DNA of 64,000 nucleotides from Levilactobacillus mulengensis (lineage in GTDB: Bacteria > Bacillota > Bacilli > Lactobacillales > Lactobacillaceae), in the NCBI RefSeq assembly GCF_003946045.1, contig NZ_RHNW01000002.1, forward strand, positions 186,001 through 250,000. The letters are read 5' to 3'. Below the pieces are notes generated by a model, which had not been told where the DNA came from, did not search any database, and saw only the letters and a list, made by a program, of their open reading frames with translations. This document shows, piece after piece, positions 29,299 to 50,529 of this stretch. Every line of letters begins with the position of its first letter. The stretch's first letter is position 1. A program made the position numbers and the translations under genes.

Positions 29299-29461
29299 CC
29301 AGGACGGAGCCAGCTGTGTCGGTGATGTTAGACCAAGCGGTTTTTCTCGGCCTTACATCACGGGACGACTTTGGAAACTCGCGATTCTCAGCGAGGTTTC
29401 AAATCGAGGTGGGAGCCCGCCCCTCAGGCGGAAACCGGCCCCACAGCAGGCGTAGTCCTGG
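29299..29461 (-). ncRNA. Structured 3'-UTR element, copy 1
   Basis: Closing stem CCAGGAC (29299-29305) / GTCCTGG (29455-29461). Second stem GCTGTG (29313-29318) / CACAGC (29442-29447). Hairpin A GTGATGT/ACATCAC (29322-29361), hairpin B TTTG.AAAC.CGC/GCG.GTTTCAAA (29370-29403), hairpin C CCGCC/GGCGG nested in GGG/CCC. The sense strand is the minus strand, downstream of pntB and copy 2. Confidence 0.65.
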
Positions 29462-29580
29462 AAGCCGCAGGCGACAACATCCACAACCTCATCACCAAAC
29501 CAACCGGAATCAGCAGGATCACCAGTAGATTGCGGCCACCACAATGGAATAGTGAAGCCACGACCAGGAGCCGGAGGAAG

Positions 29581-29744
29581 CCAGGACGGAGCCAGCTGTG
29601 TCGGTGATGTTAGACCAAGCGGTTTTTCTCGGCCTTACATCACGGGACGACTTTGGAAACTCGCGAACTTCAGCGAGGTTTCAAAGCGAGGTGGAGGACC
29701 GCTCCTCAGGCCGGAACCGTTCCCCACAGCAGGCGTAGTCCTGG
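29581..29744 (-). ncRNA. Structured 3'-UTR element, copy 2
   Basis: The same closing stem CCAGGAC (29581-29587) / GTCCTGG (29738-29744) and hairpins A and B as copy 1. Hairpin C is changed on both sides (GTGGAGGACCG ... CGTTCCCCAC). It begins ~45 nt after the pntB stop codon on the minus strand. Confidence 0.65.
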
Positions 29745-29787
29745 AAGCCGCAGGCGGCCAGCATACCGCAATCTCGTCAGCAACTAC

Positions 29788-31203
29788 TTATTCCAAATAC
29801 TGTTTAGTAGCCGCCACAATCTCCTGGAGACCCTTCTTGGCGTCGGAGAAGAACATTTGCGTGTTGTCCATCGCAAACAGCGGGTTCTGCACCCCAGCGT
29901 ACCCGGTACTCATGGAACGCTTGATGACGACTACGGACTTGGACTTGTCCACGTCCAGAATTGGCATCCCCGAAATGGCGTTGCCGCTTTCTCTGGCCAG
30001 TGGGTTCGTGACGTCGTTGGCCCCAATGACCAAGGACACATCGGTGCTTTCAAACATCGGGTTGGCGTCATCCAACTGCTTCATTTGCTCATAAGGCACG
30101 TTGACGTCGGCCAACAAGACGTTCATGTGCCCCGGCATCCGCCCAGCAACTGGGTGAATCGCGTAGTTCACGCTGATGCCTTGGTCGGTCAAAACCTTGG
30201 CCAACTCGGCCACTTCATGTTGGGCCTGTGCGGCGGCTAGACCATAGCCAGGCACAATCATGACGCTGTGGGCGTAGGCCAGCTGCAGGCCAATGTCGTC
30301 GGCAGAGGTTTCCTTCACGTCGACGGGCACGTCCGCTGCGGCCGCACCACTGTCGCTATCACCAGTCCCAAAGCCCCCAGCCAAGATATTGGCCACGGAG
30401 CGGTTCATGGCATCGGCCATTTGTAAGGTCAAAATGGTTCCGGCCGCCCCCACCAAGGCCCCGGCAATAATCAGGACTTGGTTGTTGATGACGAAGCCGG
30501 CAAAGGCCACAGCTAAACCCGTGAAGGCATTTAACAGCGAAACGACAACCGGCATGTCGGCCCCACCAATTGGCAAGGTCATCAGTAGGCCAAAGATTAA
30601 ACTCATCGCCAATGCCAAGGTGACGTACCAGACGTTGGTCGTCAGCCCCATCATCAGGTAGGCGGAAGCCAGAATCGCGATGACCACAACGATATTTAAT
30701 AATCGCGACCCCGGAAAACTAATCGGCTTCCCGGAAACGTGGCCGGAGAGCTTCCCGGTCGCAATCAGTGAGCCGGAAAAGGTGATGCCCCCGATGACCA
30801 CGTCCAGAAAGACGGGCAGGGAGAAGGCCACGCTCAGACTGGCACCGTCGCCCTTTAACAGGTAATCGAAGATCCCAATCGTGGCGGCAGCCCCGCCACC
30901 CACGGCGTTGAACAGGCTGACCAGCTGTGGCACGTCGGTCATCGGTACCTTGCGTGCCTTGACGATCCCGTAAAGAATCCCCAGCGCCAGGCCGACTAGT
31001 AAGACGACCCAGCCAATTGCATCAATTTTACCTTCAATAATAATCGTCACAATAATCGTGATGACCGCGAGAAACATCCCCACGGCGGAGAGGCCGTTCC
31101 CCTTCCGCGCCGTCTTTGGCGAGCGCATCAGGTGGACCCCCAAGACGTAACAAACGGCGGAGACCAGATAGATTAAAGACGAAATTGTTTGTAGCGCACT
31201 CAT
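29788..31203 (-). CDS. pntB: Proton-translocating NAD(P)+ transhydrogenase, subunit beta
   Basis: A 471-residue subunit: an N-terminal membrane domain of about nine helices (proton channel) and a C-terminal NADP(H)-binding domain III with PGYGLAAAQAQHEVAELA, AGRMPGHMNVLLAD and GANDVTNPLARE. With both alpha subunits it couples hydride transfer between NADH and NADP+ to proton movement. The ATG overlaps the stop of the gene before it by 4 nt. It is the last gene of the operon and is followed by an exceptionally long, structured 3'-UTR. Confidence 0.95.
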   Translation of the reverse strand: MSALQTISSLIYLVSAVCYVLGVHLMRSPKTARKGNGLSAVGMFLAVITIIVTIIIEGKIDAIGWVVLLVGLALGILYGIVKARKVPMTDVPQLVSLFNAVGGGAAATIGIFDYLLKGDGASLSVAFSLPVFLDVVIGGITFSGSLIATGKLSGHVSGKPISFPGSRLLNIVVVIAILASAYLMMGLTTNVWYVTLALAMSLIFGLLMTLPIGGADMPVVVSLLNAFTGLAVAFAGFVINNQVLIIAGALVGAAGTILTLQMADAMNRSVANILAGGFGTGDSDSGAAAADVPVDVKETSADDIGLQLAYAHSVMIVPGYGLAAAQAQHEVAELAKVLTDQGISVNYAIHPVAGRMPGHMNVLLADVNVPYEQMKQLDDANPMFESTDVSLVIGANDVTNPLARESGNAISGMPILDVDKSKSVVVIKRSMSTGYAGVQNPLFAMDNTQMFFSDAKKGLQEIVAATKQYLE

Positions 31204-31514
31204 TTCTGCTCAGCCTCCCCCTTCTTAGCAGCTGGCTTCCGGTCAAACATGCCCAACATCCGGTCAGTCACGGTGTACCCACCAGCCACGTTGACGGCCG
31301 CAAAGAAGGCACCCAGAAAAGCAAGAACATAAAATAACGCGCTGTTGGCCTCCGCCGCAATCACGAAAGCCCCCACGACAACGACGCCGTGAATGGCGTT
31401 AGCCCCGGACATCATGGGCGTTTGAAGGGTCGCGGGAATTTTACTCATGACTTCAAATCCCACTAACAGACTCAAGACAAAAATTGCTAAATTTGTAAAT
31501 AATTCCTGACTCAT
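31200..31514 (-). CDS. pntA2: NAD(P)+ transhydrogenase, subunit alpha 2 (membrane part)
   Basis: A 104-residue protein with three to four membrane helices (LAIFVLSLLVGFEVMSKIP; MMSGANAIHGVVVVGAF), equal to the C-terminal domain II part of the E. coli PntA chain. Here, as in several bacteria, the alpha subunit is split. It sits 2 nt after pntA1 and overlaps pntB by 4 nt. Confidence 0.92.
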   Translation of the reverse strand: MSQELFTNLAIFVLSLLVGFEVMSKIPATLQTPMMSGANAIHGVVVVGAFVIAAEANSALFYVLAFLGAFFAAVNVAGGYTVTDRMLGMFDRKPAAKKGEAEQK

Positions 31515-31516
31515 GC

Positions 31517-32716
31517 CTAATCAACTCCTTTGGATTCAGTTGATTCTGCGGGTGATTCCGCTGGCTGGGCGGGCTCACGTGGGGGTAACTTCATCGCTTC
31601 ACGCACCCGACTACTGATGATGTCACCCTGATAGGTGGCCAGTAGTTCGCCAACCACTTCGTCGTCCACGTCCAGCGCCAATTGGCCATCCTGGACGATG
31701 GCGTTCAGTACGGCCTGCACGTTCTTGGCAAACATATCGGAGGCCGAAGCGGGTAATTGACTGGCCATGTCGCCAGCCCCTACAATCTGGGCCTGTTGCG
31801 GCGTCGTCACGGTCTTGCCTGGTTGTGAACCGGCAACGTTGCCACCTAAGTCACTCGCCGCAAGGTCGATAAATAGGGTCCCCGCCTTGGCCGCGTCCAC
31901 GGATTGCTGGGTAACCAGCAGTGGTGGTCGGCGTCCGGGCACTTGTGCCGTCGTGATGATGACATCGTTTTGGGCAATGAAGTCCGCTAGCTCGGCCTGT
32001 TGCTGCGCCGTCTCTTCTGGCGTCAAGGCCCGGGCATACCCGCCCTCACCGGTAGCGGAGACGGACGTGGTGAGGAACGTGGCGCCCAGTGATTCGACTT
32101 CCCCGCGAGAGGCTGGCCGAATGTCATAGCCAGATACCATGGCGCCGAGCCGTTTGGCGGTCCCAATAGCCTGCAGGCCGGCAACCCCGGTCCCTAAGAC
32201 CAACACCTTGGTGGGTTTTGCCGTCCCGGCAGCCGTGATCATCATCGGTAAATACCGGGCGAATCGGTCGGCCGCGAGCAATGCCGCCTTGTACCCCGCG
32301 ACACTGGCCTGCGAACTCAAGACATCCATGGTCTGAGCCCGTGAAACCGTTCGTGGCAACAATTCAAAGGCTAAGGCATTGACCTTTTTCGCCGCCAATT
32401 CTTTGACATAGTCCAAATCCGTTAGCGGTCGTAACAGGCCCAGTAACGTTTGCCCGGCCGTCAACTGGTCGACCACGTCAGCGCCGGGCTGGCCAATGGT
32501 CGCAATCACATCGGCGCCTTTGATGACGGCGCTTCGCTCACCAATCTTGGCTCCGGCCTGCTCGTAAACGGCATCCGGATAGAAGGACCGCGTTCCGGCC
32601 CCCGCTTCAATCAGTACTTGAAACTCACTCTTGACCAGCTTCCGTACCACTTCTGGTGAGAGGGCAACCCGGTTCTCCCCGGGCGCTTCCCGTAAAGCAG
32701 CAATCGTTAATGACAT
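31517..32716 (-). CDS. pntA1: NAD(P)+ transhydrogenase, subunit alpha 1 (NAD-binding)
   Basis: A 399-residue soluble domain I with the alanine-dehydrogenase/PNT fold: LREAPGENRVALSP at the N-terminus, the NAD-binding GTGVAGLQAIGTAKRLGAMVSGYDIRP and TTAQVPGRRPPLLV. The start at 32716 has GGAG 9 nt before. It ends in a Pro/Glu/Ser-rich linker (PREPAQPAESPAESTESK) where the split from the membrane part occurs. First gene of the pnt operon; supplies NADPH or balances redox. Confidence 0.94.
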   Translation of the reverse strand: MSLTIAALREAPGENRVALSPEVVRKLVKSEFQVLIEAGAGTRSFYPDAVYEQAGAKIGERSAVIKGADVIATIGQPGADVVDQLTAGQTLLGLLRPLTDLDYVKELAAKKVNALAFELLPRTVSRAQTMDVLSSQASVAGYKAALLAADRFARYLPMMITAAGTAKPTKVLVLGTGVAGLQAIGTAKRLGAMVSGYDIRPASRGEVESLGATFLTTSVSATGEGGYARALTPEETAQQQAELADFIAQNDVIITTAQVPGRRPPLLVTQQSVDAAKAGTLFIDLAASDLGGNVAGSQPGKTVTTPQQAQIVGAGDMASQLPASASDMFAKNVQAVLNAIVQDGQLALDVDDEVVGELLATYQGDIISSRVREAMKLPPREPAQPAESPAESTESKGVD

Positions 32717-32870
32717 GCCACCCATCTCCTTTTGAGAATTCCTTCACAATCTCAGCATAGGCTTCTGCGAGGGCCAAAACAAGTTTGCCCCCCTTTATGA
32801 GACGGTTAATAAGTTGAACGTCCAACGCAATTTACCAGCTAGTCATTCACCATAAAAACCAGCTAGGACA

Positions 32871-32913
32871 ACAAAAATGGCCACTCAGCATGATTGTGAG
32901 TGACCATTTTTGT
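32871..32913 (-). terminator. Terminator of the GPP34-like gene transcript
   Basis: ACAAAAATGGCCACTCA pairs with TGAGTGACCATTTTTGT (one mismatch). The T-rich arm lies at the 3' end for minus-strand transcription. Between it and copy 3 are two further hairpins (TTCTGATTTATCAGAA at 32962-32977; GTCTAAA/TTTAGAC at ~32988-33012). The rest of 32717-32870 shows nothing I can name. Confidence 0.85.
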
Positions 32914-33058
32914 CGGCGCAAATAAATTCAGTGAATGTCCTGACTTGCAAATAATCGTGAATTCTGATTTATCAGAACCGTCTAAAGCCTGGTAGATTTA
33001 GACTGATCTTGTTCAGTGAACACCAACAAAGTTGTGAGTTAAAGGCACGCCAAGCGTA

Positions 33059-33297
33059 GGGCTGGGAAAACTGGACCGGTTGTGGAAGTGACCAGAGGCG
33101 AGCCAAGGTGCCCGGCTGTGTCGATGGTCTTGGCTGGAGTCCTTTTCCAGCCTAGCCCATGGGACAACCTTTGAGACCGCTTTTCAGGCTCAAAGTTGAG
33201 GTGGAAGCCCGCCCTTCGGCTGGAACCGGCCCCATAGCAGGGCACCTTGAGCTCGCCGCCGGGAACGGACGCGACCAGGGCCAGTTTTCATCAGCCC
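33059..33297 (-). ncRNA. Structured 3'-UTR element, copy 3
   Basis: Outermost stem GGGCTGGGAAAACTGG / CCAGTTTTCATCAGCCC (ends at 33059 and 33297). Inner closing stem GGCGAGC-CAAGGTGCCC / GGGCACCTTG-A-GCTCGCC around 33097-33256. Hairpin A GGCTGG/CCAGCC (33132-33152) with ATGG/CCAT below it, hairpin B CTTTGAG/CTCAAAG (33169-33195), hairpin C in GGAAGCCCGCCCTTCGGC. It shares the boxes GGGACRAC, GAGGTGG and CCGGCCCCAYAGCAGG with copy 1. It starts ~18 nt after the stop of the minus-strand gene at 33315. Confidence 0.7.
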
Positions 33298-33314
33298 GGA
33301 GGCCACGGCAGCGT

Positions 33315-33983
33315 TTAGCTCAGCCAACCATCCATTTCGAACTTCTTCATCTGGATGATTTCAGCAGCGACCGCCGTAACTTGCTTGACGGTTTGCACGT
33401 AACTATCCCCGGCCGTGGCGGCGGCAAACTGTTCTGACAGTGCCGTTACTTCAGCCTCGTCAAGCAGCCATTTCAAGGCGTCCTGTTGCGTTAAAATCAG
33501 GAACAGATTACTGCCAGCCCGGGTCAGCTTGCCCGCCTGAATCTGGTCCTTGAGCGTGGTCAGAACCGCCTGTTTACTGGTCGCCGTAGGTTCGTAGATT
33601 ACGTGGGGCTTCAAATTATTTTGAAAGAGCACCCGCTCCGTGGTCTGCTCCGCCAGCGTTTCTGCGCCGATGCCGTCGTAAATGGCGTTAACGATATCCC
33701 AGCTCGTCACCAATTTCAAAACCGTTTTCAACCGGTCATCCTGGGCAATATCGCTGGTCAACCGAATCCGGAATGAATTCAGGTATGCCGGCTGTTGATC
33801 CAAGTGGGCCTCGTCAGCCACAATCAGCCGGTCACCTTCTACCTGGAGAATCTCTTGGTCCAATAGGTCGAGGAGCGTCGCCAGCACAAAGTATGCCTGC
33901 GTGGTGAAGCGCGTCCGCAACGTGGGTTTTTGCCCAATATGTTCGGTTACTAGTAAAAAGTTTTTGGCGGTTGTGAGTGCCAA
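33315..33983 (-). CDS. GPP34 (GOLPH3/VPS74)-like protein, tentative
   Basis: A 222-residue cytoplasmic protein without signal peptide. The pattern LLVTEHIGQKPTLRT ... AYFVLATLLDLLDQEILQVEGDRLIV resembles the start of GPP34-family proteins, which in eukaryotes bind phosphoinositides and in bacteria have no settled role. The remainder is helical. The similarity is weak and the name should be taken as a hint. It is monocistronic, followed by a ~400-nt 3'-UTR holding structured element copy 3. Confidence 0.5.
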   Translation of the reverse strand: MALTTAKNFLLVTEHIGQKPTLRTRFTTQAYFVLATLLDLLDQEILQVEGDRLIVADEAHLDQQPAYLNSFRIRLTSDIAQDDRLKTVLKLVTSWDIVNAIYDGIGAETLAEQTTERVLFQNNLKPHVIYEPTATSKQAVLTTLKDQIQAGKLTRAGSNLFLILTQQDALKWLLDEAEVTALSEQFAAATAGDSYVQTVKQVTAVAAEIIQMKKFEMDGWLS

Positions 33984-34136
33984 GTTGGTTCCCCCTTAGA
34001 AAATCTCGAAATTAAAGCCTACGAAGCGTTAGTATACCACACGTTTGCCGGGTCTCAGCTGTTTTTCGGATAGATAGTGTTCCTAGCGCCACCAATTTAA
34101 CCGGAAAATGATTAAACCCCAATTTACCGATGACAC

Positions 34137-34162
34137 AAAAGGACCGACCCGCAAGTCGATCC
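34137..34162 (-). terminator. Terminator of yfcC
   Basis: GGACCGAC (34141-34148) pairs with GTCGATCC (34155-34162) apart from one mismatch, with a T-run on the minus strand. Confidence 0.7.
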
Positions 34163-34238
34163 TCAGTTGCGTTAATCTTAATTGGTTCTAACTGCTTTAC
34201 GCTCTGTGACAGTCGGTAACAGAAACTACATCACTGTT

Positions 34239-35789
34239 CTAGCTGAACAGCACTTCCATCACGAGGATGGCGCCACCAAAGAACAGGACAAACAGAACAA
34301 CTGGCCAAACGAATTTGAACCAGTGCGAATACTTCATGTCCAGCATTTGCAGCGTTGCCATGACCAGACCGGTTGGGGCCAGGAACAGCATTGCGTATTG
34401 CCCGAATTGGTAAGCGGTAACCACGGCGAACCGGGGAATATCAACTGTATCGGCTAAGGGCGCAAAGATTGGCATGGCCAAAACAGCTAAACCAGAAGAT
34501 GATGGCACGATGAATCCCAGAACGAAGAAGATCAGCATCATCACAATGATGAAGACGGACCCACTGACATGGGCAACCAGGTTCGAGGAGTATTGTAAAA
34601 TCGTATCGGAAATCATCCCGTTGTTCATCACCAGGTTAATCCCACGAGCTAACCCAATGATCAATGACACCCCAACTAAACTTGCGGCCCCATTGGTGAA
34701 GGCATCAACCACACCCTTTTCACCGATACCATACTTACCAGTAGCGGTAATAAACATAATGATAATGGCAAAGAGTAGGAAGGAAGACGCCATGGTTGGG
34801 AACCACCAGCCCTGGGACATAACACCCCAGACCATGATAGGGAACGTCACCACGAACAAGACCAAGATGATCTTCTTACGCATCGTGAAGGCCGTGTTGG
34901 CCGTGTGCTCAGAGGAAACGGACCACATTTTATCAAAGGAACTCTTATCCTCATAGGAGTATGAGAATGACGGCGTGTCCTTAACCTTCTTGCTGTACCA
35001 GTGCAGGTAGGCAACGACGAAGGCCGCAGCCACCACCAACCCAGCGATCCGCCAAGTGATCCCTTCGGTAAAGTTAATCCCGGCAGCGTTAGACGCAATC
35101 ACGACGGAGAACGGGTTAATCGTTGAGAAAGCGGTACCAATTGAACTCGACAGGAAGATTGCCCCCACACAGACGATGGAGTCGTAGCCCATCGCAATGA
35201 AGATCGGCACCAGAATCGGGTAGAAGGCCACCGCTTCTTCTTCAATCCCACACAACGTCCCACCAAGAACCATGAGAATGGAAACCATAAAAATCAGTAA
35301 GAACTCGTGCCCTTTCGTCTTCTTCGTCAACGCCATCAGGCCGGATTCAAAGGCCCCACTGGCCTTGACGACCCCAATCAGGCCCCCCAGAACGAAGATG
35401 AAGACCATGATGTCGACGGCCTCAATCGTCCCGTTGACCATACTCGTCGTAATGGCGCCGAGTCCGGCTGGCCGTTGCTTCAAGCGGTGATAGGTATTGG
35501 GAATCGAGACCGCCTGGGTGATTCCGCCAGACGTAAATTCTTTGATTTTAATCTTCACGCCCAACTTATCTAATTCCTGTTGGGTCGCTGGTACTTTAAC
35601 GGTCTTACCAGCTGGACGAGAAATCTCCAGGTGGGAACCGCTATATGATAGCTTAGAATATGAACCGGCTGGAATCATGTAGGTTGCGAGCACGGCGACA
35701 ATCGTCAAAATAAATAAGATGACGAACGCGCCGGGCATTTTCAATTTAAATCTTTTCTTCTTCGGTTTTGGTGCGACTGATGCATCCAT
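34239..35789 (-). CDS. YfcC-family basic amino acid antiporter
   Basis: A 516-residue membrane protein with 11-13 helices of the YfcC/ArcD-like C4-dicarboxylate-type fold (MPGAFVILFILTIVAVLATYMIPAGSY; GGTLCGIEEEAVAFYPILVPIFIAMGYD; FVVPSSSGLAVLAMPI-type loop). The ATG at 35789 has AAGGGG 8 nt upstream; the GTG at 35798 overlaps that site. It follows arcC after a hairpin and is probably an arginine/ornithine or citrulline/ornithine exchanger of the catabolic pathway. Confidence 0.82.
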   Translation of the reverse strand: MDASVAPKPKKKRFKLKMPGAFVILFILTIVAVLATYMIPAGSYSKLSYSGSHLEISRPAGKTVKVPATQQELDKLGVKIKIKEFTSGGITQAVSIPNTYHRLKQRPAGLGAITTSMVNGTIEAVDIMVFIFVLGGLIGVVKASGAFESGLMALTKKTKGHEFLLIFMVSILMVLGGTLCGIEEEAVAFYPILVPIFIAMGYDSIVCVGAIFLSSSIGTAFSTINPFSVVIASNAAGINFTEGITWRIAGLVVAAAFVVAYLHWYSKKVKDTPSFSYSYEDKSSFDKMWSVSSEHTANTAFTMRKKIILVLFVVTFPIMVWGVMSQGWWFPTMASSFLLFAIIIMFITATGKYGIGEKGVVDAFTNGAASLVGVSLIIGLARGINLVMNNGMISDTILQYSSNLVAHVSGSVFIIVMMLIFFVLGFIVPSSSGLAVLAMPIFAPLADTVDIPRFAVVTAYQFGQYAMLFLAPTGLVMATLQMLDMKYSHWFKFVWPVVLFVLFFGGAILVMEVLFS

Positions 35790-35825
35790 TAATTTCACCC
35801 CTTAAGTGATTTTTAACGCCAAACG

Positions 35826-35881
35826 AAAAACGTGGTCCAAGAACGGGTGTCACCAACATCACCGTACGATTGGACCACGTT
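35826..35881 (-). terminator. Hairpin between arcC and yfcC (terminator or attenuator)
   Basis: AACGTGGTCCAA pairs with TTGGACCACGTT around a nested ACGGGTG/ATCACCGT stem, with T5 on the minus strand. Partial read-through would lower yfcC relative to arcBC. Confidence 0.8.
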
Positions 35882-35897
35882 CCGTTAATTTAACTGA

Positions 35898-36827: not shown

Positions 36828-36841
36828 ATGTTATTCCCCCA

Positions 36842-37840: not shown

Positions 37841-37873
37841 TGTGTGTTCCTCCTTTAGTTAATTACAGTTACT

Positions 37874-37915: not shown

Positions 37916-37948
37916 CTTTGTTAAACTTTTTTCGAAGGAGCTCAAAAT

Positions 37949-40085: not shown

Positions 40086-40182
40086 ACGAGCCGCTTAGGT
40101 CCTGAGCATTAACGTCGACTAAGTGATGACCCTGGGCTTGGGTCATTGCTTAGTCGGGGTTAAGCGCAGGGACCTGGCTCGT
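40086..40182 (+). repeat. 97-nt imperfect hairpin directly after the response-regulator stop
   Basis: The arms close with ACGAGCC (40086-40092) / GGCTCGT (40176-40182) and continue AGGTCCTGAGC with GCGCAGGGACCT, and CGACTAAGTGATGACCC with GGGTCATTGCTTAGTCG, leaving a short loop. The whole lies between the stop codon and the terminator at 40482. Confidence 0.85.
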
Positions 40183-40418
40183 GTAGCACGTTTCAGAAGC
40201 CGCAAGGTCCGGGATTGTTCCAGGAAGAACCAGTCAAACGATCTAAGAAAATAGAAAACCAACGGCAAGTCCCAGACCTAAACCAACGACGTTAAGCGCA
40301 GGAGTCTGGCTCGTGGAGCACGTTTCGGAAGCCGCAAGGTCCAGGATTGTTCCAGGAAGAACCAGTCCAACGACCTAAGAAAGTAAAGAGTCAACGGCAA
40401 GTCCCAGACCTTAACCAA
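40159..40418 (+). repeat. 132-nt tandem direct repeat, two units
   Basis: Units 40159-40290 and 40291-~40418 share GTTAAGCGCAGG, TGGCTCGTG, GCACGTTTC, AAGCCGCAAGGTCC, GATTGTTCCAGGAAGAACCA and CAACGGCAAGTCCCAGACC. The first unit begins inside the right arm of the preceding hairpin. No coding frame with a ribosome binding site is present. The remainder of 40078-40629 holds only the terminator and the promoter region of the next gene. Confidence 0.85.
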
Positions 40419-40481
40419 TGAAACTAACCGCACACAAAGCTGTTTTCAGACCCAACAAGCCCCCATCCAAACACCTCCCCC

Positions 40482-41652: not shown

Positions 41653-41716
41653 CGTTTCATTTATTCCGCAATATTCCCCACCAAATATCTAATCTTGGCA
41701 TACCGATTTTTTATCG

Positions 41717-41774: not shown

Positions 41775-41795
41775 AACATAAAGGAGATCGCGCTC

Positions 41796-42167: not shown

Positions 42168-42183
42168 ATCGGAGGTCTTCATC

Positions 42184-42456: not shown

Positions 42457-44390
42457 GTATTAAAAATCGGTTCGTCTTCTCACTCATCCTGTCCCTGCCC
42501 TTATTAGTTGAAATGTTTACCGCCCCACTCGGCATCATGTTGCCCGGCGGCGTTTGGACCATGTTCTTCCTCACCACAGCAGTCATGGCCGTTTCGGCGG
42601 GTCCCTTCATCGAAAGTGCCTGGGCCGCCTTCCGTCACCACCACGCCAACATGGATACTCTGGTCGCCATCGGGACGATCACGGCTTACCTGTACAGTTT
42701 CTACGCGATGCTAGCCGGCAAGGACGTCTTCTTTGAAAGTGCCGCCTTCGTGGTTACTCTGATCTTATTGGGCCAGTATTTTGAAGAAAAAATGAAGCAC
42801 TCCGCTTCCGGCGCCGTCAGCAAGTTAGTCGACCTGCAGGCCAAGGACGCCGAGGTCATGCGCGACGGGCAACTGGTCAAGGTTCCTCTGGCCGAAGTCG
42901 CTGTCGGTGACATCATCCGCGTCCGTCCCGGCCAAAAGATTGCCGTCGATGGCGTCATCACCGAAGGCACCTCGACCATCGACGAATCCATGGTCACCGG
43001 TGAAAGCATGCCCGTCACCAAGCAGGCAGGCGACCACGTCATCGGCGCTACCATTAACAGCAACGGGACCTTCATGTTCAAGGCCAGCAAGGTCGGTAAC
43101 GACACCCTGCTTTCCCAAATTGTGGAAATGGTCAAGAAGGCCCAAACCAGCCACGCACCCATTCAAAAGTCCGTGGACAAGGTCGCCGACATCTTTGTGC
43201 CCGCCGTCTTGATTGTGGCCATCGCCACCTTTACCATCTGGTACGTCTTCATTGGCGCCTCCCTGGTCACGGCCATGCTCTTCGCCGTTTCCGTGGTCAT
43301 CATCGCCTGCCCCTGTGCGTTAGGGATTGCGACGCCAACCGCCTTAATGGTGGGAACCGGCCGCAGTGCCAAGATGGGCATCCTAATCAAAAATGGGGAG
43401 GTCCTCGAAGCGGCTAACCACGTTAAGACGGTCGTTTTCGACAAGACCGGGACCATCACTGAAGGTCATCCCCAGGTCACGGACATTGTCGGCGACGAAA
43501 CCACGGTCTTACGGGTAGCTGCTAACCTTGAAGTTTCCTCAGAACATCCCCTGGCCGCCGCCATCTTGGACAAGGCCAAGGCTGAAAACGTTGACGTCAC
43601 CGCTGCCGAAAACTTCCAAGCCATCGAAGGCAAAGGGGTTCAGGCCACAGTTGACGGGCAACCAGCCTTTATTGGGAACGATAAATTGATTGCCGATTAC
43701 AAGTTAGACGCGACCCTGAGTGACCGCATGGCCCAGCTACAAGGTGAAGCCAAAACTGTCGTCCTCGTGGGCATCGCCGACCGGATCATTGGGTTGATTG
43801 CCATTCAAGACGCGCCTAAGGTCAGTTCCGCTGGTGCCATGGCTGCACTCAAGGCACGCGGGTTACGGACGGTCATGTTGACCGGGGATAACCAACGGGT
43901 CGCCGAGGCCATTGCGGCCGAAGTGGGCATCGACACGGTCATCGCCGACGTGCTTCCCGGCGACAAGGCCGACCACGTCAAGCAACTCCAGGCCGCGGGG
44001 CCGGTGGCCTTCGTCGGTGATGGAATCAACGACGCGCCCGCCCTAACCACGGCCGACGTCGGCATCGCCATGGGTTCCGGGACCGACATCGCCATCGAAT
44101 CCGGTGGCATCGTCCTGGTCAAGAATGACCTGATGGACGTGGTCCGGGCCCTCGAACTCAGCAAGAAGACCTTTAACCGGATCAAGTTGAACCTGTTCTG
44201 GGCCTTCATCTACAACACGTTGGGCATTCCTGTTGCCGCTGGCGTATTCGCCGTCTTCGGCCTGGCTTTGAATCCTGAAATCGCCGGTCTGGGCATGGCC
44301 TTAAGTTCCCTGTCCGTGGTTGCCAGTTCCCTGTTGTTGAACAAGTCAAAATTAACGTCAACGCCGGCGACCGACGCCCACGTTGCCTAA
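42453..44390 (+). CDS. copB: Copper-exporting P1B-type ATPase
   Basis: A 645-residue ATPase without an N-terminal metal-binding (CxxC) domain. TGES in [12 protein letters not shown], the CPC ion motif in IIACPCALG (~286-288), phosphorylation site DKTGTITEG (~330), HP motif in [10 protein letters not shown] and [11 protein letters not shown] are intact. Missing N-terminal ferredoxin-like domains are compensated by the two cupredoxin-like proteins encoded upstream. It is in the CopY-regulated operon. The exact ion (Cu+ expected) is inferred from CPC and context. Confidence 0.93.
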
Positions 44391-44406
44391 ACCGGAGGAA
44401 TCTCTC

Positions 44407-44511
44407 ATGGATGAAAAATTTTGGAGCAAAAGCACGCGGTTGACCGCCATCGCCGCCATTGTCTACCTCATCGTAGCCACGGGCGTTGGCATGTTGATTA
44501 CGAATCACTAA
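44407..44511 (+). CDS. 34-residue single-helix membrane peptide of the copper operon
   Basis: An ORF too short for usual gene callers: ATG at 44407 with GGAGGA 8 nt upstream, 16 nt after the ATPase stop, and a terminator 14 nt after its own stop. The peptide starts MDEKFWSKSTRL, continues with a ~19-residue hydrophobic helix (TAIAAIVYLIVATGVGMLI) and ends TNH. Charge distribution predicts the N-terminus inside. It may be a small regulatory partner of the ATPase. Confidence 0.75.
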   Translation: MDEKFWSKSTRLTAIAAIVYLIVATGVGMLITNH

Positions 44512-44524
44512 TTTTAGCCAAATG

Positions 44525-44572
44525 AAAACCGTTGCCATCGGCGCCTGCGAGCGTTGGTAGCAACGGCTTTTT
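44525..44572. terminator. Bidirectional terminator
   Basis: CCGTTGC (44529-44535) pairs with GCAACGG (44560-44566), with A- and T-rich flanks, between the copper operon and gpx. Confidence 0.85.
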
Positions 44573-44574
44573 GA

Positions 44575-45045
44575 TTACCTTTGAAGAGCTGTAAGAATAT
44601 CGGGTTCCACCTTCTCAGGCGTGGTAATTGGCGCGTAGCGGTCGATCAGCTGACCATCGCGACCAATCAGAAACTTGGTGAAATTCCACTTGATCCGGCC
44701 GTGACCCGCGGTGGCCTTGAGATAGGTAAACAGTGGGTCCTCGTCATCCCCGTTGACCGCAATCTTTTTGGTCATGGGAAAGGTGACCCCGTAATGCATC
44801 TGGCAAAAGTCGCTGGTGGCGGCGTCGGTCGCTAACTCCTGGTGAAATTGGTTGGATGGCAGGCCCAAAACTTCGAAGCCCTGCTCACGATACTTGCGGT
44901 AAAGCGCCTCAATACCTTCTAACTGGGGCGCGAGGCCACACTTACTGGCAGTATTCACGATCAACAGCACCTTGCCCTGATAGTCCTTGAAGTCAATGGT
45001 TCTGCCACTCATTTCCGTTTCGGTAAACTCATAAATCGTCGCCAT
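44575..45045 (-). CDS. gpx: Glutathione peroxidase family protein
   Basis: A 156-residue thioredoxin-fold peroxidase: active Cys in NTASKCGLAPQ, Gln in LPSNQF and Trp/Asn in IKWNFTKFLI. The second (resolving) Cys is in TSDFCQMHYGV, which indicates the thioredoxin-dependent, Cys-based type. It reduces hydrogen or lipid peroxides in the cytoplasm. It is monocistronic, convergent with the copper operon; copper stress and peroxide stress are linked, but co-regulation is not shown here. Confidence 0.93.
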   Translation of the reverse strand: MATIYEFTETEMSGRTIDFKDYQGKVLLIVNTASKCGLAPQLEGIEALYRKYREQGFEVLGLPSNQFHQELATDAATSDFCQMHYGVTFPMTKKIAVNGDDEDPLFTYLKATAGHGRIKWNFTKFLIGRDGQLIDRYAPITTPEKVEPDILTALQR

Positions 45046-45160
45046 AGAACCGCATCCCTTCTGATTGTGTGCTTAATGTTTAGCTTCTAAACCAGTTGTG
45101 TACAAATCAATTATACATTATCAGGTTTGCATTAGCTCGCAATCCACTGGGCGTCCGACT

Positions 45161-45880
45161 CTAGTCTTTGTCATAGATCGCCCGTAGGCTGGCCAAATCT
45201 GCCGTGGACAGCTGCGTCTTGCCATGATCCAACGGCGTCATGACGGAAGACTTGTCCGAACTGTGGTCCAGGCCCAGCGCGTGCCCCAACTCATGAATGG
45301 CAACAGAACGCTTGAAAGCATGCGGATAGGTGGCGTTGAGCTTGGCCGTGGCCGTGTTGGTCGTCAAGATGCCCCGCCAACTGATGCGCTGCGTAATCTG
45401 CGGGCCCCCGTGGCCGTACTCGATGATGGTCTGACCCTTAGGCTCGCGTTTATGATAGGTGCCAAAGGTGATCTGGTTGGTCTTGGAACTTCCGGTGCCC
45501 GCCACCAGCTGAACGATGCCGGTCTGATTATAGACGTCGACGGCGTAGGCAAAGACCTCGCGCACTTTCTCCGGCGTGTTCTTGGCAAAACGATAGTAGT
45601 ATTTCTTCTGGAGTAAGAGTCCCTGCATGGCCTCCTCCACCGGCGTCTCGTCCGCACCGGTCTGGGTGGTGGCATCACTGGTGTTGCGCAGGATATAGCC
45701 ACTCGCCCGATAATTTCCGGACTGACTCTGACTCGCGGCCGACTGGGCCTTGCCCGTCAGCGTGGCCACGATTGCCGCACGGTAATAGGTAAACTGGGTC
45801 GACAGCGGCTGCCAATTGACAGCGATAAACACACCGATTCCCAAAACAATGGCAAGTAACAAACGTCTAACAATTTTCAC
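45161..45880 (-). CDS. Membrane-anchored matrixin-like zinc metalloprotease
   Basis: A 239-residue protein starting at GTG (GGGAAG 8 nt before). An N-terminal membrane segment (LLLAIVLGIGVFIAV) anchors an outside domain with the metzincin motif HELGHALGLDH (~194-204) and the Met-turn SVMTPLD after it. This fits family M10 (matrixin-like) peptidases known from lactobacilli. Substrates are unknown. No pro-domain with a cysteine switch is seen. It is monocistronic. Confidence 0.88.
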   Translation of the reverse strand: MKIVRRLLLAIVLGIGVFIAVNWQPLSTQFTYYRAAIVATLTGKAQSAASQSQSGNYRASGYILRNTSDATTQTGADETPVEEAMQGLLLQKKYYYRFAKNTPEKVREVFAYAVDVYNQTGIVQLVAGTGSSKTNQITFGTYHKREPKGQTIIEYGHGGPQITQRISWRGILTTNTATAKLNATYPHAFKRSVAIHELGHALGLDHSSDKSSVMTPLDHGKTQLSTADLASLRAIYDKD

Positions 45881-46003
45881 AGCGCAATCTTCCCTTCGAC
45901 TCTCTTCTGCCCCGACAATGTTTCCAATTAAGTTGATTCTAGGCTATCTAGTTGTGGGGCGCAACTAGATTGACCTCATAATTTCTGGCCACACCGATTG
46001 GGC

Positions 46004-46030
46004 GAAAAAAGCCCGCCGGAAGCGGACTTT
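46004..46030 (-). terminator. Terminator
   Basis: AAAGCCCGC (46008-46016) pairs with GCGGACTTT (46022-46030) with one mismatch; T-run on the minus strand. Confidence 0.8.
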
Positions 46031-46037
46031 TAGTGAT

Positions 46038-46490
46038 TTATTTATAGTAAACGTGACCGTAAGTGGGGTGCTTAATCGGTGAGGTTTCAACACTTTCACC
46101 GGTTTGCTTGTAGCCGTACCACTGAGCCTTGTAAGACTTGTGCTTGCGGTTGGTCTTGCTGACTTTGAACTTGTAATAATTCACCAGTTTGCCATGGGTC
46201 CAGCCCATTTCGTGCCCCTTGAGGTAGTAAACGTGACTACCCTTCTTGTGTTGGTAAGTCATGTTCTTATTCGTGACAAATGGCAGTAACAAGGCATTGG
46301 ACTTGATTGTAAACCAAGGGTAATAGTCTAAAGTCTTATCTTTCTTCGGATCAACCCACTTGCCCCGCAAAACCTTCGGCGTCCCCTTGTGCCAGGTTGC
46401 GGCATTGGCGGATTGGGTGGTGCTGGCGCCAATAGCTAAACCAGCAACAACGGCTAAAGCAGTGGTTCCTACTTTCAACATGTTCTTCAT
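46038..46490 (-). CDS. Small secreted basic protein
   Basis: A 150-residue protein with a clear signal peptide (GTTALAVVAGLAIGA, cleavage near ANA-AT). The mature ~120 residues are rich in Lys, Tyr, Trp and His (e.g. KNMTYQHKKGSHVYYLKGHEMGW), similar in composition to small wall-associated proteins of lactobacilli. I do not recognise a family. No anchor motif is present, so binding to the negatively charged wall by charge is likely. Confidence 0.75.
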   Translation of the reverse strand: MKNMLKVGTTALAVVAGLAIGASTTQSANAATWHKGTPKVLRGKWVDPKKDKTLDYYPWFTIKSNALLLPFVTNKNMTYQHKKGSHVYYLKGHEMGWTHGKLVNYYKFKVSKTNRKHKSYKAQWYGYKQTGESVETSPIKHPTYGHVYYK

Positions 46491-46614
46491 GAAGAACCCT
46501 CCCAGAGTGAATTATTTGCTCTTACAAGGTTAATCATACATCAGTAAAACCAAATTGAACTTAAGTAATTTCGGGGCAAATCTTTTCGGTGAATTTAGAT
46601 ACTGCTTTAAGAAA

Positions 46615-46750
46615 ATAAAAACGGCTGGATTTTAGTCCAACCACTTTTTGAGTAATATTCTAAATTTACGTCCTGTTACTCTCAGAGACAACCGTTCAAG
46701 TGAGCAAAATTTTAAGTTAACGTCCCGTTGCCCTCGGAGATTCTCGTACA
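46615..46750 (-). ncRNA. Candidate small RNA with two internal repeats
   Basis: On the minus strand a possible promoter (TTTACG, 16 nt, TATATT at ~46763-46758) precedes ~135 nt that end in the terminator GGTTGGA/TCCAGCC (46642-46623) with TTTTT. Inside, two ~28-nt related segments (46713-46740 and 46661-46688, about 6-7 differences) are 52 nt apart, not a multiple of three. The overlapping 63-codon frame at 46632-46823 lacks a ribosome binding site. Confidence 0.4.
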
Positions 46751-46836
46751 CCAATAATATACCCTGACCCAGCAAAACGTAAATTTTATCTGCCTCACTA
46801 CAACACATAATGTTTCGAATCAAACCAAAAGTCGAC

Positions 46837-48300
46837 TTAAACTAAGGCCAACACCGTAAAGTTAATCACAAACAGAATCGATACGATCCAGATCAACGGA
46901 TGAACGTCCTTAGCCTTCCCCAAGACCACCTTGACGATGCAGTAGAAAATGAAACCAGCCGCAATCCCATAGGTAATGTTGTAGGCAAAGGCCATGACAA
47001 ATGTGGTCATGAAGGCTGGAATCGCCTCGTTTAAATCGTGCCACGGAATCTTGCTGAGGGAACTCATCATCATGATTCCCACTAGGATCAGTGATGGCGC
47101 AATGGCCGCCGTCGGAATGATCGATAGTAACGGTGAAGCCAGAGAGCTGGCCAAGAAGAGCACGGCCACCACAACACTGGTTAACCCTGTCCGGCCACCG
47201 GCCCCAATCCCCGCGGAGCTTTCCACGTAGGTCGTCAGGTTAGACGTCCCAAAGATGGAGCCAACGCCGGTCGCAATCGAATCGGCAAATAACGCCTTAT
47301 CCAGCTTGGATTTAAACCCGGGTTGGCTTTCCAGCTCAAGTTCCCGTTTGCCGGAGAAAATCCCGGTTTGCCGGCCCGTCCCAATGAAGGTCCCCAGGGA
47401 ATCGAAGGTGTCAGACAAACTGAAGGAAAGAATTGTCATCAGAACCAGGATAACGCGATTGTGTTCCGCAAATAATGACCCCATCCCCTCGTGAGAAAAG
47501 GCCGCCAGGAAGGTCGTGCCCAGCTGATGGACCGACGCACCAAATGAAAAGCCACTGGCTAAATGCAGGTTGGTGACCCCCATGGGAATCCCAATAATGG
47601 TCGTCGTTAGGATTCCAATCAGGAGGGCGCCCGGCACCTTGCGAACCTTAAAGATGACCGTAATCACCAAGCCAATCAAGGCCAGCACTAATGACGGTGA
47701 GTTAAAAACTTGGAGCGCTGGCACAATGCCACCACCCGTGACGACTGAACCGATACCCTGGCCAAACGCCTTTTGCGTGGCATCAAAGGCCTTGCCGTTG
47801 ATTGACACGATGTTGCTGGCATCACTGGTAAATTGGAGAAAGTTCGCGTTTTTCAGCCCCACGTAGGCGATGAACGCCCCAATTCCCCCGCTGATAGCTA
47901 GTTGAAGGTTAATCGGAATCGCTGAGATCAGCATTTTCCGAATCTTGGTAGCGGTAATAATGATATTGATAATGCCACAGAAGAAAACCAAGGCCAACGC
48001 CTGCTGCCAGCTAAAGCCCAGCCCCATAACCACGGTGTAGGTGAAGAAGGCATTCAGCCCCATCCCAGGTGCCAGCGCATAGGGCACGTTGGCAAAAAGC
48101 CCCATGACCAAGGTCCCGACGACGGACGCGATAATTGTGGCGAGAAAGACCGCTTGTTGCGGCATCCCCGTTTGCCCCAAGATGGTTGGATTCACAAATA
48201 AGATATAGGACATGGCAAAGAAAGTCGTGACGCCAGCTGCAACTTCGGTACCGACAGTTGTTCCCGATTCCTTAAGTTTAAAGAATTTATCCACAATCAA
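46837..48300 (-). CDS. Purine permease, AzgA/NCS2 family
   Basis: A 487-residue permease with ~12-14 helices. Motifs typical of the adenine/guanine/hypoxanthine (AzgA/PbuG) branch are TFFAMSYILFVNP, PYALAPGMGLNAFF, SLSDTFDSLGTFIGTG and YVESSAGIGAGGRTGLTSV. It imports nucleobases with protons. AGGAGG precedes the ATG, and a PurR-like box stands just upstream, which agrees with purine control. Confidence 0.92.
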   Translation of the reverse strand: MIVDKFFKLKESGTTVGTEVAAGVTTFFAMSYILFVNPTILGQTGMPQQAVFLATIIASVVGTLVMGLFANVPYALAPGMGLNAFFTYTVVMGLGFSWQQALALVFFCGIINIIITATKIRKMLISAIPINLQLAISGGIGAFIAYVGLKNANFLQFTSDASNIVSINGKAFDATQKAFGQGIGSVVTGGGIVPALQVFNSPSLVLALIGLVITVIFKVRKVPGALLIGILTTTIIGIPMGVTNLHLASGFSFGASVHQLGTTFLAAFSHEGMGSLFAEHNRVILVLMTILSFSLSDTFDSLGTFIGTGRQTGIFSGKRELELESQPGFKSKLDKALFADSIATGVGSIFGTSNLTTYVESSAGIGAGGRTGLTSVVVAVLFLASSLASPLLSIIPTAAIAPSLILVGIMMMSSLSKIPWHDLNEAIPAFMTTFVMAFAYNITYGIAAGFIFYCIVKVVLGKAKDVHPLIWIVSILFVINFTVLALV

Positions 48301-48310
48301 TTCCTCCTAG

Positions 48311-48324
48311 AAAATCCGAACATT
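48311..48324. promoter_or_regulatory. PurBox-like site upstream of the purine permease
   Basis: AAAATCCGAACATT contains the CCGAACAWT core of the Gram-positive PurR box with the A-rich 5' part. It lies 11-24 nt upstream of the start codon. A second, inverted box is not clear. Confidence 0.55.
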
Positions 48325-48520
48325 AAAATAATTATAATCAATAAATGTTAGCTATTACATTCATGACTATACCAGATTCAGGCCGAAAAAGATAGACAAA
48401 TATAATTTAACGAACTTTGACTGATTCATCATCAACTGATTATATTCTAATCATCACACTCCGTCGTCCCCAGTCGCCCGCTAGTGTTGGCACGTTCACT
48501 TAATTATTCCGAGAAAACAA

Positions 48521-48552
48521 AAAGGCTAACAATCGTCCTGATTGCTAGTCCC
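48521..48552 (-). terminator. Terminator of the 60-residue gene
   Basis: GGCTAACAATC pairs with GATTGCTAGTC (mismatches near the base), with TTTTT on the minus strand. Confidence 0.7.
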
Positions 48553-48562
48553 ATTTACGCCG

Positions 48563-48745
48563 TCACCGCACGCTATGCTCTGCGTCCTGTCGTAGTTTTT
48601 GTAAATCACGGTCACTGACCCGCAGCTTGACCTCCCCGGTAGCCAAATCAACGTCGGCCACCACGTCAACCGCCTTTGGCGCGACACTCTCCCGTTTGAG
48701 TTTCAAGGGGCCAGTGAACGCCACAGTTGCCAATCTTTTCTGCAA
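48563..48745 (-). CDS. 60-residue hypothetical protein, TTG start
   Basis: A small gene read from TTG at 48745 with an excellent ribosome binding site (GGAGG, 9 nt). The product (QKRLATVAFTGPLKLKRESV ... DLATGEVKLRVSDRDLQKLR) is soluble, charged and probably beta-rich. I do not recognise its family. The longer frame open to 48874 has no ribosome binding site and overlaps the upstream exporter's terminator. It is monocistronic. Confidence 0.65.
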   Translation of the reverse strand: MQKRLATVAFTGPLKLKRESVAPKAVDVVADVDLATGEVKLRVSDRDLQKLRQDAEHSVR

Positions 48746-48834
48746 ATTGCTACGCCTCCTTCCTAAACTTCGGCACCAGTATAGCACCGGTATACCGCGG
48801 TTTCTGGGCAGACGTCTTACAAATTTGCTTATAA

Positions 48835-48877
48835 AAAGGGCCCCGCACCGGTCGCCAGACCAGCCGCGGGACACCCT
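48835..48877 (-). terminator. Terminator of the MFS exporter
   Basis: GGGCCCCGC pairs with GCGGGACACCC (with a bulge), followed by T5 on the minus strand. Confidence 0.75.
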
Positions 48878-48879
48878 AT

Positions 48880-50076
48880 TTACTCTTCTTGCACAGAAAC
48901 TCGTGACGACCGCTGGACCAGGCCAACGAACCCGACCAGCATGCCACTACATAGTCCCAACACGTACCACGGCAGCGTTTCAACGGCCCCATTGTGGAGC
49001 CAACTCATACCATAGGTCAAGGCGCTGACCACTAAATAGTAGCCGAGACTGAACCAGCCACTGGCACTGCCCATCACGGCCTCGTAACCCACCAGCGCGC
49101 GGTTCAAGGCATTGGGGAGGGTCACGTTGAGGCCGAGAAAAGTGAGAAATACAAATGCTAATAAGAGTCCCGCGTGGTCCAAGTAAGCGGCACCCACTAG
49201 CCCCGCACTAGCAATCACACTAAACAGCAAGCCACCCAGAGCCACCTGTTCCGGCGTTGCCCAGTTCAGTAGCCAGTTGACCAGCACGGCGCCAAGTAGA
49301 CTGGCACCGGCCAGGATCAATCCCAGCCAACCGTATTGCACGGCGGAATAGCCAAAACGGCTGATAAAGATGAATGGTGCTTCGGCATAGTAACTGAACA
49401 ATACGCCATTAATACCACCGATTAATAAACCATAACCCCAAACGACCGGGTCTGTTAGCAAGCGGCGCAACAGGACCATTTGATTGACCCGTTTGACCTT
49501 TGTCGTCATCGGTTGTGTTTCGGGCAAACAAGCCCCGGCATACAACCCAACGGCCACGGCCATCGCGACCAGCGTGCCAAAGACGCTACGGTAGCCAAAG
49601 TAAGTCTGCATGATTCCCCCAATTAAGGGACCCAGCGCGGGGGCTAACGCCATGGCGGCACTGGTACGGGCAAAGACTTTGGCCCCGGTCAGCCCACTGA
49701 AGCTCTCGCGCATGATGGTCTGGGTCACCACAGACCCGGCACTGGCGCCAAACGCCTGAACTAGCCGGCTGCCAATCAGCCACCCGAAAGTCGGACTAAG
49801 CGTCAGTCCCAGGTTCCCCGCCAGGTAGACGGCAATCCCCGCCAGCATGGCTGGACGCCGCCCCCATTTGTCAGCCAGTTGGCCCCAAATCAGGACGCCA
49901 ACGGCAAAGGCGACGAAGTACGTGCTCATGGTTAACTGTGCCCGGTTGGCACTCACGCTAAAGGCACTCTGTAGCTGTGGCAACACCGGGGTGAAAATAG
50001 ATTCGCTGATCTGGGGAAACCCTACCAGCGCAATGATCAATCTCAAGGAAGGGACTGTTTGACGGACGTTTTTCAA
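48880..50076 (-). CDS. MFS drug exporter, DHA1 (Bcr/CflA-like)
   Basis: A 398-residue 12-helix exporter from a TTG start with AGGAG 7 nt upstream. MFS motif A is GQLADKWGRRPAML, and the antiporter motif C region is ALAPALGPLIGGIMQ. N-terminal IFTPVLPQLQ fits the Bcr/CflA/MdfA group. A 21-codon ORF with its own ribosome binding site precedes it by 19 nt in the same transcript, which suggests translation-based induction. Likely substrates are antibiotics or other amphiphilic compounds. Confidence 0.87.
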   Translation of the reverse strand: MKNVRQTVPSLRLIIALVGFPQISESIFTPVLPQLQSAFSVSANRAQLTMSTYFVAFAVGVLIWGQLADKWGRRPAMLAGIAVYLAGNLGLTLSPTFGWLIGSRLVQAFGASAGSVVTQTIMRESFSGLTGAKVFARTSAAMALAPALGPLIGGIMQTYFGYRSVFGTLVAMAVAVGLYAGACLPETQPMTTKVKRVNQMVLLRRLLTDPVVWGYGLLIGGINGVLFSYYAEAPFIFISRFGYSAVQYGWLGLILAGASLLGAVLVNWLLNWATPEQVALGGLLFSVIASAGLVGAAYLDHAGLLLAFVFLTFLGLNVTLPNALNRALVGYEAVMGSASGWFSLGYYLVVSALTYGMSWLHNGAVETLPWYVLGLCSGMLVGFVGLVQRSSRVSVQEE

Positions 50077-50095
50077 GATTTTTCTCCTTTTAAAG

Positions 50096-50161
50096 TTAAT
50101 CTAGGGAAAAACGTCCTTGTCCGTTTGCGGGGGCACACGCCATTAATTTATCAATACTCAT
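50096..50161 (-). CDS. Leader peptide of the MFS exporter
   Basis: ATG at 50161 to TAA at 50096-50098 encodes 21 residues (MSIDKLMACAPANGQGRFSLD). GAGGGG lies ~10 nt before the ATG. The exporter's ribosome binding site begins ~7 nt after the leader stop. Nucleotides early in the transcript (TAGGGAAA, ~50194-50187) can pair with TTTCCCTA at the leader's end, so stalling could change the fold around the exporter start. The regulatory role is inferred. Confidence 0.55.
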   Translation of the reverse strand: MSIDKLMACAPANGQGRFSLD

Positions 50162-50194
50162 GGGTTGTCACCCCTCTCTGTTGAATGTTTCCCT

Positions 50195-50223
50195 ACTTTA
50201 CGGGATTCCGGGGGTTCTGTCAA
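50195..50223 (-). promoter_or_regulatory. Promoter of the leader-exporter transcript
   Basis: TTGACA (50223-50218), 17-nt spacer, TAAAGT (50200-50195) on the minus strand, giving a ~100-nt leader. Confidence 0.65.
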
Positions 50224-50253
50224 GGCGTGTAGATATCCAGACGCATTGACAAA

Positions 50254-50286
50254 TAAAAAAGAGGTCGCAGCATCGGCCACAACCTC
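50254..50286 (-). terminator. Terminator of the HAD-gene transcript
   Basis: GAGGT (50261) pairs with ACCTC (50286) with further imperfect pairs inside; T6 follows on the minus strand. It lies ~260 nt after the HAD stop, so structured element copy 4 is in that 3'-UTR. Confidence 0.75.
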
Positions 50287-50364
50287 GTTAACAATTTAAA
50301 TTTAAGTGAACAACATCACCCACCAGCAACGACTGACGAAGGAATTAAACCAGTGTCAGCCGCA

Positions 50365-50529
50365 GGGCTAGTGAAAATGGGCTCAGCCGTGGGAGTTGCC
50401 TTAGCGGGTTTCCCGCTTAGGCAACTGATATCTTTTAGACGCGTTTCTCAGCGGCTCAAAGTAAGCACGGAGACCGCTCTATGGCTCCGAGCGTGCGCCC
50501 ACAGCGTCACGGCCCATTTTCACCAGCCC
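50365..50529 (-). ncRNA. Structured 3'-UTR element, copy 4
   Basis: Outermost stem GGGCTAGTGAAAATGGGC / GCCCATTTTCACCAGCCC (ends 50365 and 50529), then CCGTG/CACGG and GTGGG/CCCAC. Hairpin A: GTTGCCT-T-AGCGGG / CCCGCT-T-AGGCAAC (50395-50425). Hairpin B: CTTTTAGACGC / GCGGCTCAAAG (50432-50461). Hairpin C: GCACG/CGTGC around GGAG..CTCC. It has the same layout as copy 3 and a related outermost stem, but little identity elsewhere. It begins ~18 nt after the HAD stop on the minus strand. Confidence 0.65.

Follow-up and report, generated by a model that had tools for sequence, protein, structure and literature searches.

The window analyzed here, a stretch of 64,000 nucleotides from Levilactobacillus mulengensis (contig NZ_RHNW01000002.1, positions 186,001 to 250,000 of the forward strand), contains four strongly folded intergenic elements. 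All four lie on the minus strand at the positions given by an earlier sequence-only reading, and the structural plan described there holds. Their neighbors are the gene for the beta subunit of an NAD(P) transhydrogenase, a gene for a protein of 222 residues, and the gene of a HAD-type hydrolase (Table 1). Seen together with their relatives in this and other genomes, the elements are probably modules of a non-autonomous mobile DNA family of the Lactobacillaceae that resembles miniature inverted-repeat transposable elements (MITEs). This reading draws on copy number, convergent pairing, and conservation of the fold and, in sister species, on insertions facing empty sites, terminal inverted repeats (TIRs), and direct repeats. 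Herein, R1 orientation denotes the minus strand of the window, i.e. the strand used to build the search model R1, and the outer side of a module is its 5′ side in this orientation.

Table 1. Elements and flanking features in the window (scores from cmsearch with model R1; fold z against 200 dinucleotide shuffles)
Feature	Position	Strand	Evidence
Copy 1, three-hairpin module of type c1, left copy of the tandem repeat	29299–29461	-	R1 162.6 bits; fold z -5.3
Copy 2, three-hairpin module of type c1	29581–29744	-	R1 164 bits; 93% identical to copy 1
Tandem duplication (29211–29442 and 29493–29724)	29211–29724	-	Repeat search: 232 nt, 90% identity, spacing 282 nt
Copy 3, c3-type module (33101–33252) within c4-type outer ends	33059–33297	-	R1 126.2 bits at 33101–33252; fold z -5.0
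Copy 4, module of type c4 bearing inverted ends of 18 nt	50365–50529	-	R1 86.6 bits at 50372–50519; fold z -6.7
Terminator-like stem and T-run, 3′ of copy 4 on the coding strand of the HAD gene	50254–50287	-	Read from the sequence
PNTB, NAD(P) transhydrogenase beta subunit, flanking gene	29788–31203	-	Pfam PF02233, E 2.2e-170
Flanking gene, 222 aa	33315–33983	-	No Pfam match at E 0.001; matched in 32/35 genomes of the genus
HAD-type hydrolase, flanking gene	50547–51353	-	Pfam PF08282; match at E 1e-40 in 28/35 genomes of the genus

The module has a length of about 160 nt and consists of a closing stem, an inner stem (GCTGTG/CACAGC), and three hairpins. Folding was tested for three copies, each of which is more stable than its shuffled sequences. 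The model R1 was built from 30 copies of the L. mulengensis genome with the window copies among them; hence, the R1 scores of the latter express consistency and are no independent proof. Copies 1 and 2 are contained in a tandem duplication, the repeated unit of which comprises the module and its inner flank, and the outer side of copy 2 points toward the stop codon of PNTB. Copy 4 has at least 39 more relatives in the same genome with 85–92% identity by BLAST. The outermost ends are common to copies 3 and 4, as the sequence-only reading had claimed, with copy 3 showing the c4-type pair GGGCTGATGAAAAC...GTTTTCCCAGCCC. Its further claim of one plan for all four copies holds for the three-hairpin module and fails for copy 3 as a whole, which is a second module type placed inside ends of the copy 4 type. 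This combination of a c3 module within c4-type ends recurs in further copies, e.g. L071.

Across the 30 copies, 88% of cells are paired, and both sides have changed in 30 of the 52 pairs. The covariation score of 0.386 is well above that of shuffled controls (0.170 ± 0.008) and of controls in which the partner was slid (at most 0.139). Pairing is, as the sequence-only reading had noted, kept despite the divergence of the sequences. No known family had been recognized, and Rfam likewise gave no match at gathering scores anywhere in the window, nor any at E 1 between 29000 and 33400; for five loci from other genera, the single weak match (E 0.33) lies outside the modules.

The family is abundant. 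A search of the L. mulengensis genome with R1 gave at least 150 matches, and BLAST with copy 4 at least 40 of the c4 type. Modules number 76 in 280 kb of the contig of the window (stretch A), 65 in 280 kb (stretch B), and 52 in 220 kb (stretch C), where B and C are syntenic to A in two sister species; these counts use 193 of 210 matches, with 17 dropped because they were cut by the end of a stretch or scored below 42 bits. By extrapolation, a genome would hold about 800 copies if the density were even. None of these modules lies within a called gene, the genes having been called by a codon-usage script that removed weak calls overlapping modules. In a first sample, the element occurs in 33 of 58 genomes, i.e. 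in 33 of the 35 from the genus (L. mulengensis included) and in none of the 23 from other families. A wider sample of the family Lactobacillaceae yielded it in 58 of 251 genomes and 10 of 40 genera under strict filters, which may have missed weak copies. The two genomes of the genus without an R1 match at E 0.001 (G022 and G031) could help to date gain or loss. Carriage by plasmids or phages was considered and discarded: a c1 copy had no match in either collection, and the element end had none in plasmids.

Neighboring modules are arranged convergently. Among neighbors within one intergenic region, the order '+-' is found 36 times in the three stretches (15, 10, and 11 in A, B, and C), the order '-+' never (0, 0, and 0), and the same strand 18 times (9, 6, and 3). 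The paired modules turn their inner sides toward each other, and therefore each strand carries one module per orientation. Among the best 150 matches in L. brevis, neighbors within 700 nt comprise 19 '+-', one '++', and no '-+' pairs. The gap is 111–132 nt in 15 of these 19 '+-' pairs, and in aligned units the two members differ in type, one being c1-like and the other c4-like. In other genera, a '+-' partner lies 69–427 nt away in 13 of 20 copies; these copies are among the best-scoring of 13 genomes, and two of them look like one locus in related genomes.

This arrangement bears on the proposal of the sequence-only reading that the elements are a repeated RNA acting in 3′-untranslated regions (3′-UTRs), in which case the sense fold would stabilize or process the upstream mRNA. 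The three loci of the window agree with it: all are in sense, they begin 43, 17, and 17 nt past the stop codon (a distance within about 45 nt had been claimed), and copy 4 is followed by a terminator-like stem, as described. The conserved pairing is also in favor, as is a sense majority relative to the outer-side gene in the three syntenic stretches (122 of 192 sense, 70 antisense; 48/76 in A, 42/64 in B, where one copy has no neighbor, and 32/52 in C). Furthermore, 12 of the 20 copies from four other genera follow a sense intrinsic terminator at 19–110 nt, compared with 3, 3, and 2 in other arrangements; terminator placement is weak in the own genus (13, 12, 4, and 8 of 76 in A). However, among 61 copies spread over the L. 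mulengensis genome, 30 are sense, 29 antisense, and 2 undetermined. On these orientation counts, action in 3′-UTRs was rejected as a general rule, and the consistent sense position expected from the window does not extend beyond it. In addition, convergent pairing sets one member of each pair antisense, elements are gained and lost between species, and the strand opposite to R1 folds better in 150 of 172 copies and in 18 of 20 copies from other genera. A functional 3′-UTR RNA family is, thus, unlikely. Distances to genes are asymmetric, because the inner side faces the element interior. On the outer side, the median in A is 58 nt to a sense gene and 100 nt otherwise, and on the inner side the distance is never below 116 nt in A, 125 nt in B, and 96 nt in C. 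The median intergenic gap in A is 699 nt with a module and 200 nt without.

As the six sites displayed among the three closest species offer no clean insertion, the history of insertion was traced in another set of species, namely L. brevis, L. angrenensis, and L. suantsaiihabitans. At a first site, a module pair follows directly after a stop codon in L. angrenensis, and the site is empty in the other two species. At a second site, L. angrenensis again has a pair, L. brevis is empty, and L. suantsaiihabitans reads through without it (S6). A single module of L. suantsaiihabitans is located between a stop codon and the terminator (S4), with GCCAACTA on either side of the insert, and L. brevis and L. 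angrenensis are empty there. Lastly, a single module of L. angrenensis just past a terminator (S3) has retained no exact duplication and faces empty sites in the other two species.

The TIRs of the whole unit have the sequence CTRAAGGTTGAAAG, as seen in L. angrenensis and relatives. Related species contain 22 stretches bounded by CTRAAGGTTGAAAG-like ends with at most two mismatches each. Direct repeats of 8–9 nt with at most one mismatch flank 8 of these 22, as opposed to 2 of 462 controls in which flanks from different copies were compared. Examples of the repeats outside the ends are TTATTTGT, TTAAACTGA, CTGTATAA, and TTATTAGC; some further TIR-bounded stretches show 7-nt repeats in a shifted frame (by eye, uncounted). 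Four complete units of 639, 641, 637, and 572 bp are composed of modules, interior, and ends, and they are short and without coding capacity; the interior between their modules, about 125 nt, is poorly conserved. The element end sequence was matched in 7 of the 35 genomes of the genus, with at least 26 matches in two of them and none in L. mulengensis. A strict scan with the TIR pattern GRTTGAAAGCNGAAAA was abandoned as too strict, as it matched 1 of the 35 genomes. The alternative wording of the sequence-only reading, an RNA-shaped mobile element, is supported by the many copies and by the empty sites and target-site duplications in sister species. Target-site duplications, which had been named there as an argument against a 3′-UTR RNA, are present in related copies, though not in those of the window.

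Several observations weigh against a MITE-like family. No near-perfect direct repeat in the tested frame was found for 14 of the 22 TIR-bounded stretches. TIR-like matches are few in the own region and its two nearest kin, with 3 in 280 kb, 2 in 280 kb, and 1 in 220 kb, and L. brevis has 1 in 140 kb; L. angrenensis, in contrast, has 11 in 140 kb, and L. suantsaiihabitans has 7 in 115 kb. With so few outer TIRs in the own region, the window copies are assigned to the family by their modules alone. In A, 34 of the 76 copies are single in their intergenic region. Among the three closest species, the six displayed of the 20 differing sites show internal deletions, extra tandem copies, and module-type swaps, and no clean insertion with duplication. 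No transposase was noticed when the genes enclosed by convergent modules at distances below 6 kb were inspected by eye in A, B, and C, with no family search; these genes look ordinary and mostly have orthologues. Neither of the two mobilizer candidates, reverse transcriptase and Y1 transposase, tracks the distribution of the element, and both were rejected as drivers: reverse transcriptase families occur in 10 of the 35 genomes of the genus and not in L. mulengensis, and Y1_Tnp (PF01797) occurs in 23 of the 35, with no match in the element-rich genomes G012 and G002. Finally, fixed copies retain more pairing than inert remnants should, although clustered changes leave room for gene conversion.

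The last point touches on the possibility that the host has retained old mobile elements for a structural or regulatory purpose, e.g. as an insulator, a roadblock, or a recombination site, with the fold under selection. At 45 orthologous loci, 74 double Watson–Crick changes were counted at core pairs, whereas about 4 would be expected under independence, a value that assumes one third of 11 doubles. Core paired sites diverge by 6.6% and unpaired sites by 13.8%, and of 48 module-containing intergenic regions compared, 28 show the same number of modules in all species compared. On the other hand, only 8 of the 74 double changes are isolated, with 66 in clusters, and they could have arisen by conversion between copies or by template switching at hairpin tips. 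Divergence is equally low (6.6%) at paired sites of the outer arms, where just 6 double changes were counted. Because the changes are mostly clustered and the arms are as conserved as the core, conversion between copies may account for the pattern, which weakens the argument for selection from double changes. Moreover, the other 20 of these 48 regions vary in module number, and the family has a patchy distribution in the wider sample. We, therefore, regard a host-kept feature as conceivable but doubtful. A separate observation concerns orthologous site 59 (G000:C12, approximately 71691–72739; A, B, and C), where two species have a c4-type module and the third has a c3-type module with shared outer arms; in one species, half of an earlier module persists behind the newer one. 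This suggests in-place module replacement.

A strand bias was also seen. Single changes at core pairs of orthologous positions, in R1 letters, give A.C 48 times and G.U 23 times (p = 0.004); at arm pairs, the counts are 56 and 39 (p = 0.10). Together with the better folding opposite to R1, this excess of A.C looks as if the opposite strand were the folded one. Such a strand preference would fit a REPIN-like element, in which an HUH (Y1/RAYT) transposase supplied in trans would act on the folded single strand. As far as the available part of the REPIN study goes (PMC3116915), such elements are also alike in having inverted pairs as the unit, singlets as remnants, an extragenic position, and a fold. 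The convergent pairs in the three stretches and in L. brevis display this unit. However, the presence of a Y1/RAYT gene is not linked to that of the element in the 35 genomes of the genus, and the module is far from a REP unit of 20–40 nt. Insertion of the IS200/IS605 type is not expected to give direct target duplications, which are present here. Furthermore, the two halves of the L. brevis chromosome show no strand bias (39/39 and 37/35, with the origin assumed at the start of the record). Hence, a REPIN-like origin is highly improbable.

In the complete form of the MITE-like family, seen in L. angrenensis and relatives, CTRAAGGTTGAAAG TIRs enclose an oppositely oriented module near each end with the outer sides outward, flanked by a target duplication of 8–9 bp, at about 640 bp in total. 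The window copies would be older or shortened relatives of this unit. Copies may have been moved in trans by a cut-and-paste (DDE-type) transposase, and the folded single strand of the module might play a part in transposition or in making the element tolerable to the host. An autonomous partner was considered at the third TIR of L. angrenensis, which turned out to be an isolated end before an ordinary gene. This 37-nt end, 35/37 identical by eye, lies in G030:C1 (L295 position 2100, reverse complement), and no module was matched in the 16.5 kb of sequence fetched there.

Modules of the own genus often have flanks that form an inverted repeat; its sequence is specific to the locus and at times takes in the last codons and the stop of a gene. 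The own right flank scored best of 60 for 27 copies and among the top three for 39, with a mean score of 32.2 versus 19.0 (sd 4.1); window copy 4 does not reach significance here (score 18, rank 40). No inverted flanks were found for the 20 copies from other genera (own flank best for 0; mean 20.5 versus 20.8), and with 600-nt flanks and stricter scoring, 9 of 76 copies exceed the 95% control. Flank copying as part of every insertion was, therefore, rejected. Our guess is that inverted flanks arise via template switching at the hairpin base. A more elaborate and rather speculative scheme, to which we give little credence, has the modules as ends recognized as folded single strands with fixed defects (U.U, A.G, and a bulged A) rather than as linear repeats, and the Levilactobacillus modules as hairpin cores that copy the host flank inverted, X-module-rcX. 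The host flank X, different per locus and sometimes including the last codons of a gene, would herein be copied inverted on the inner side, and the hairpin element would grow into host sequence by snap-back.

Two other features of the window were noted. Between genes at 40159–40422, a repeat search gave two tandem 132-nt units with 88% identity. At approximately 50060–50165 on the minus strand, the leader of an MFS gene (48880–50040) contains a short conserved reading frame, MSIDKLMAC.PANGQGRFSLD (by eye). It includes GGACGTTTTTCC, which is able to pair with GAAAAACGTCC where the transporter gene begins. The frame recurs in relatives and, judged from its sequence, looks like a leader-peptide attenuator.

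If the interpretation as a MITE-like family is right, food and gut bacteria of a common group carry, within the stretches examined, one structured module per 4 kb or so, and the family is a mini-transposon conserved in fold rather than in sequence, with empty sites available for the study of insertion. Multicopy folded elements near stop codons may pass for 3′-UTR RNAs, and surveys of structured RNAs in lactobacilli should mask them.

Compared with known systems, group IIC introns sit shortly after intrinsic terminators in sense. The elements described here share this placement in 12 of the 20 copies from other genera; in contrast, the L. mulengensis genome lacks a reverse transcriptase match, and the elements lack an Rfam match. 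MITEs generally have TIRs and target duplications, as does the complete form here. No description of the family was found among the results listed from openly licensed literature, and the known repeats were compared by description; in the part of the table shown in a survey of stem-loop families, L. johnsonii is the only lactobacillus (PMC2267715). Nearest in architecture are REPINs and the BOX, RUP, and SPRITE repeats. REPINs consist of short palindromes in inverted doublets and have RAYT transposases linked to them; according to the part of the source available, their inverted pairs are over-represented and probably the unit, their singles are remnant-like, and they are extragenic (PMC3116915), all in likeness to the present family. 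The latter differs from that description by having three hairpins over about 160 nt in its module in place of a short palindrome, by an unlinked Y1/RAYT, and by complete copies with direct target duplications. The pneumococcal BOX, RUP, and SPRITE repeats are treated as MITE-like and, by the available part of their description (PMC3049150), are alike in being mostly non-coding, multicopy, intergenic, and strongly folded, with slow present movement. Compared with that part, the outer repeats here are short and nearly absent in the own region, no mobilizing insertion sequence was found, modules occur about once per 4 kb, and conservation resides in two large three-hairpin modules that stand convergent and have covarying stems.

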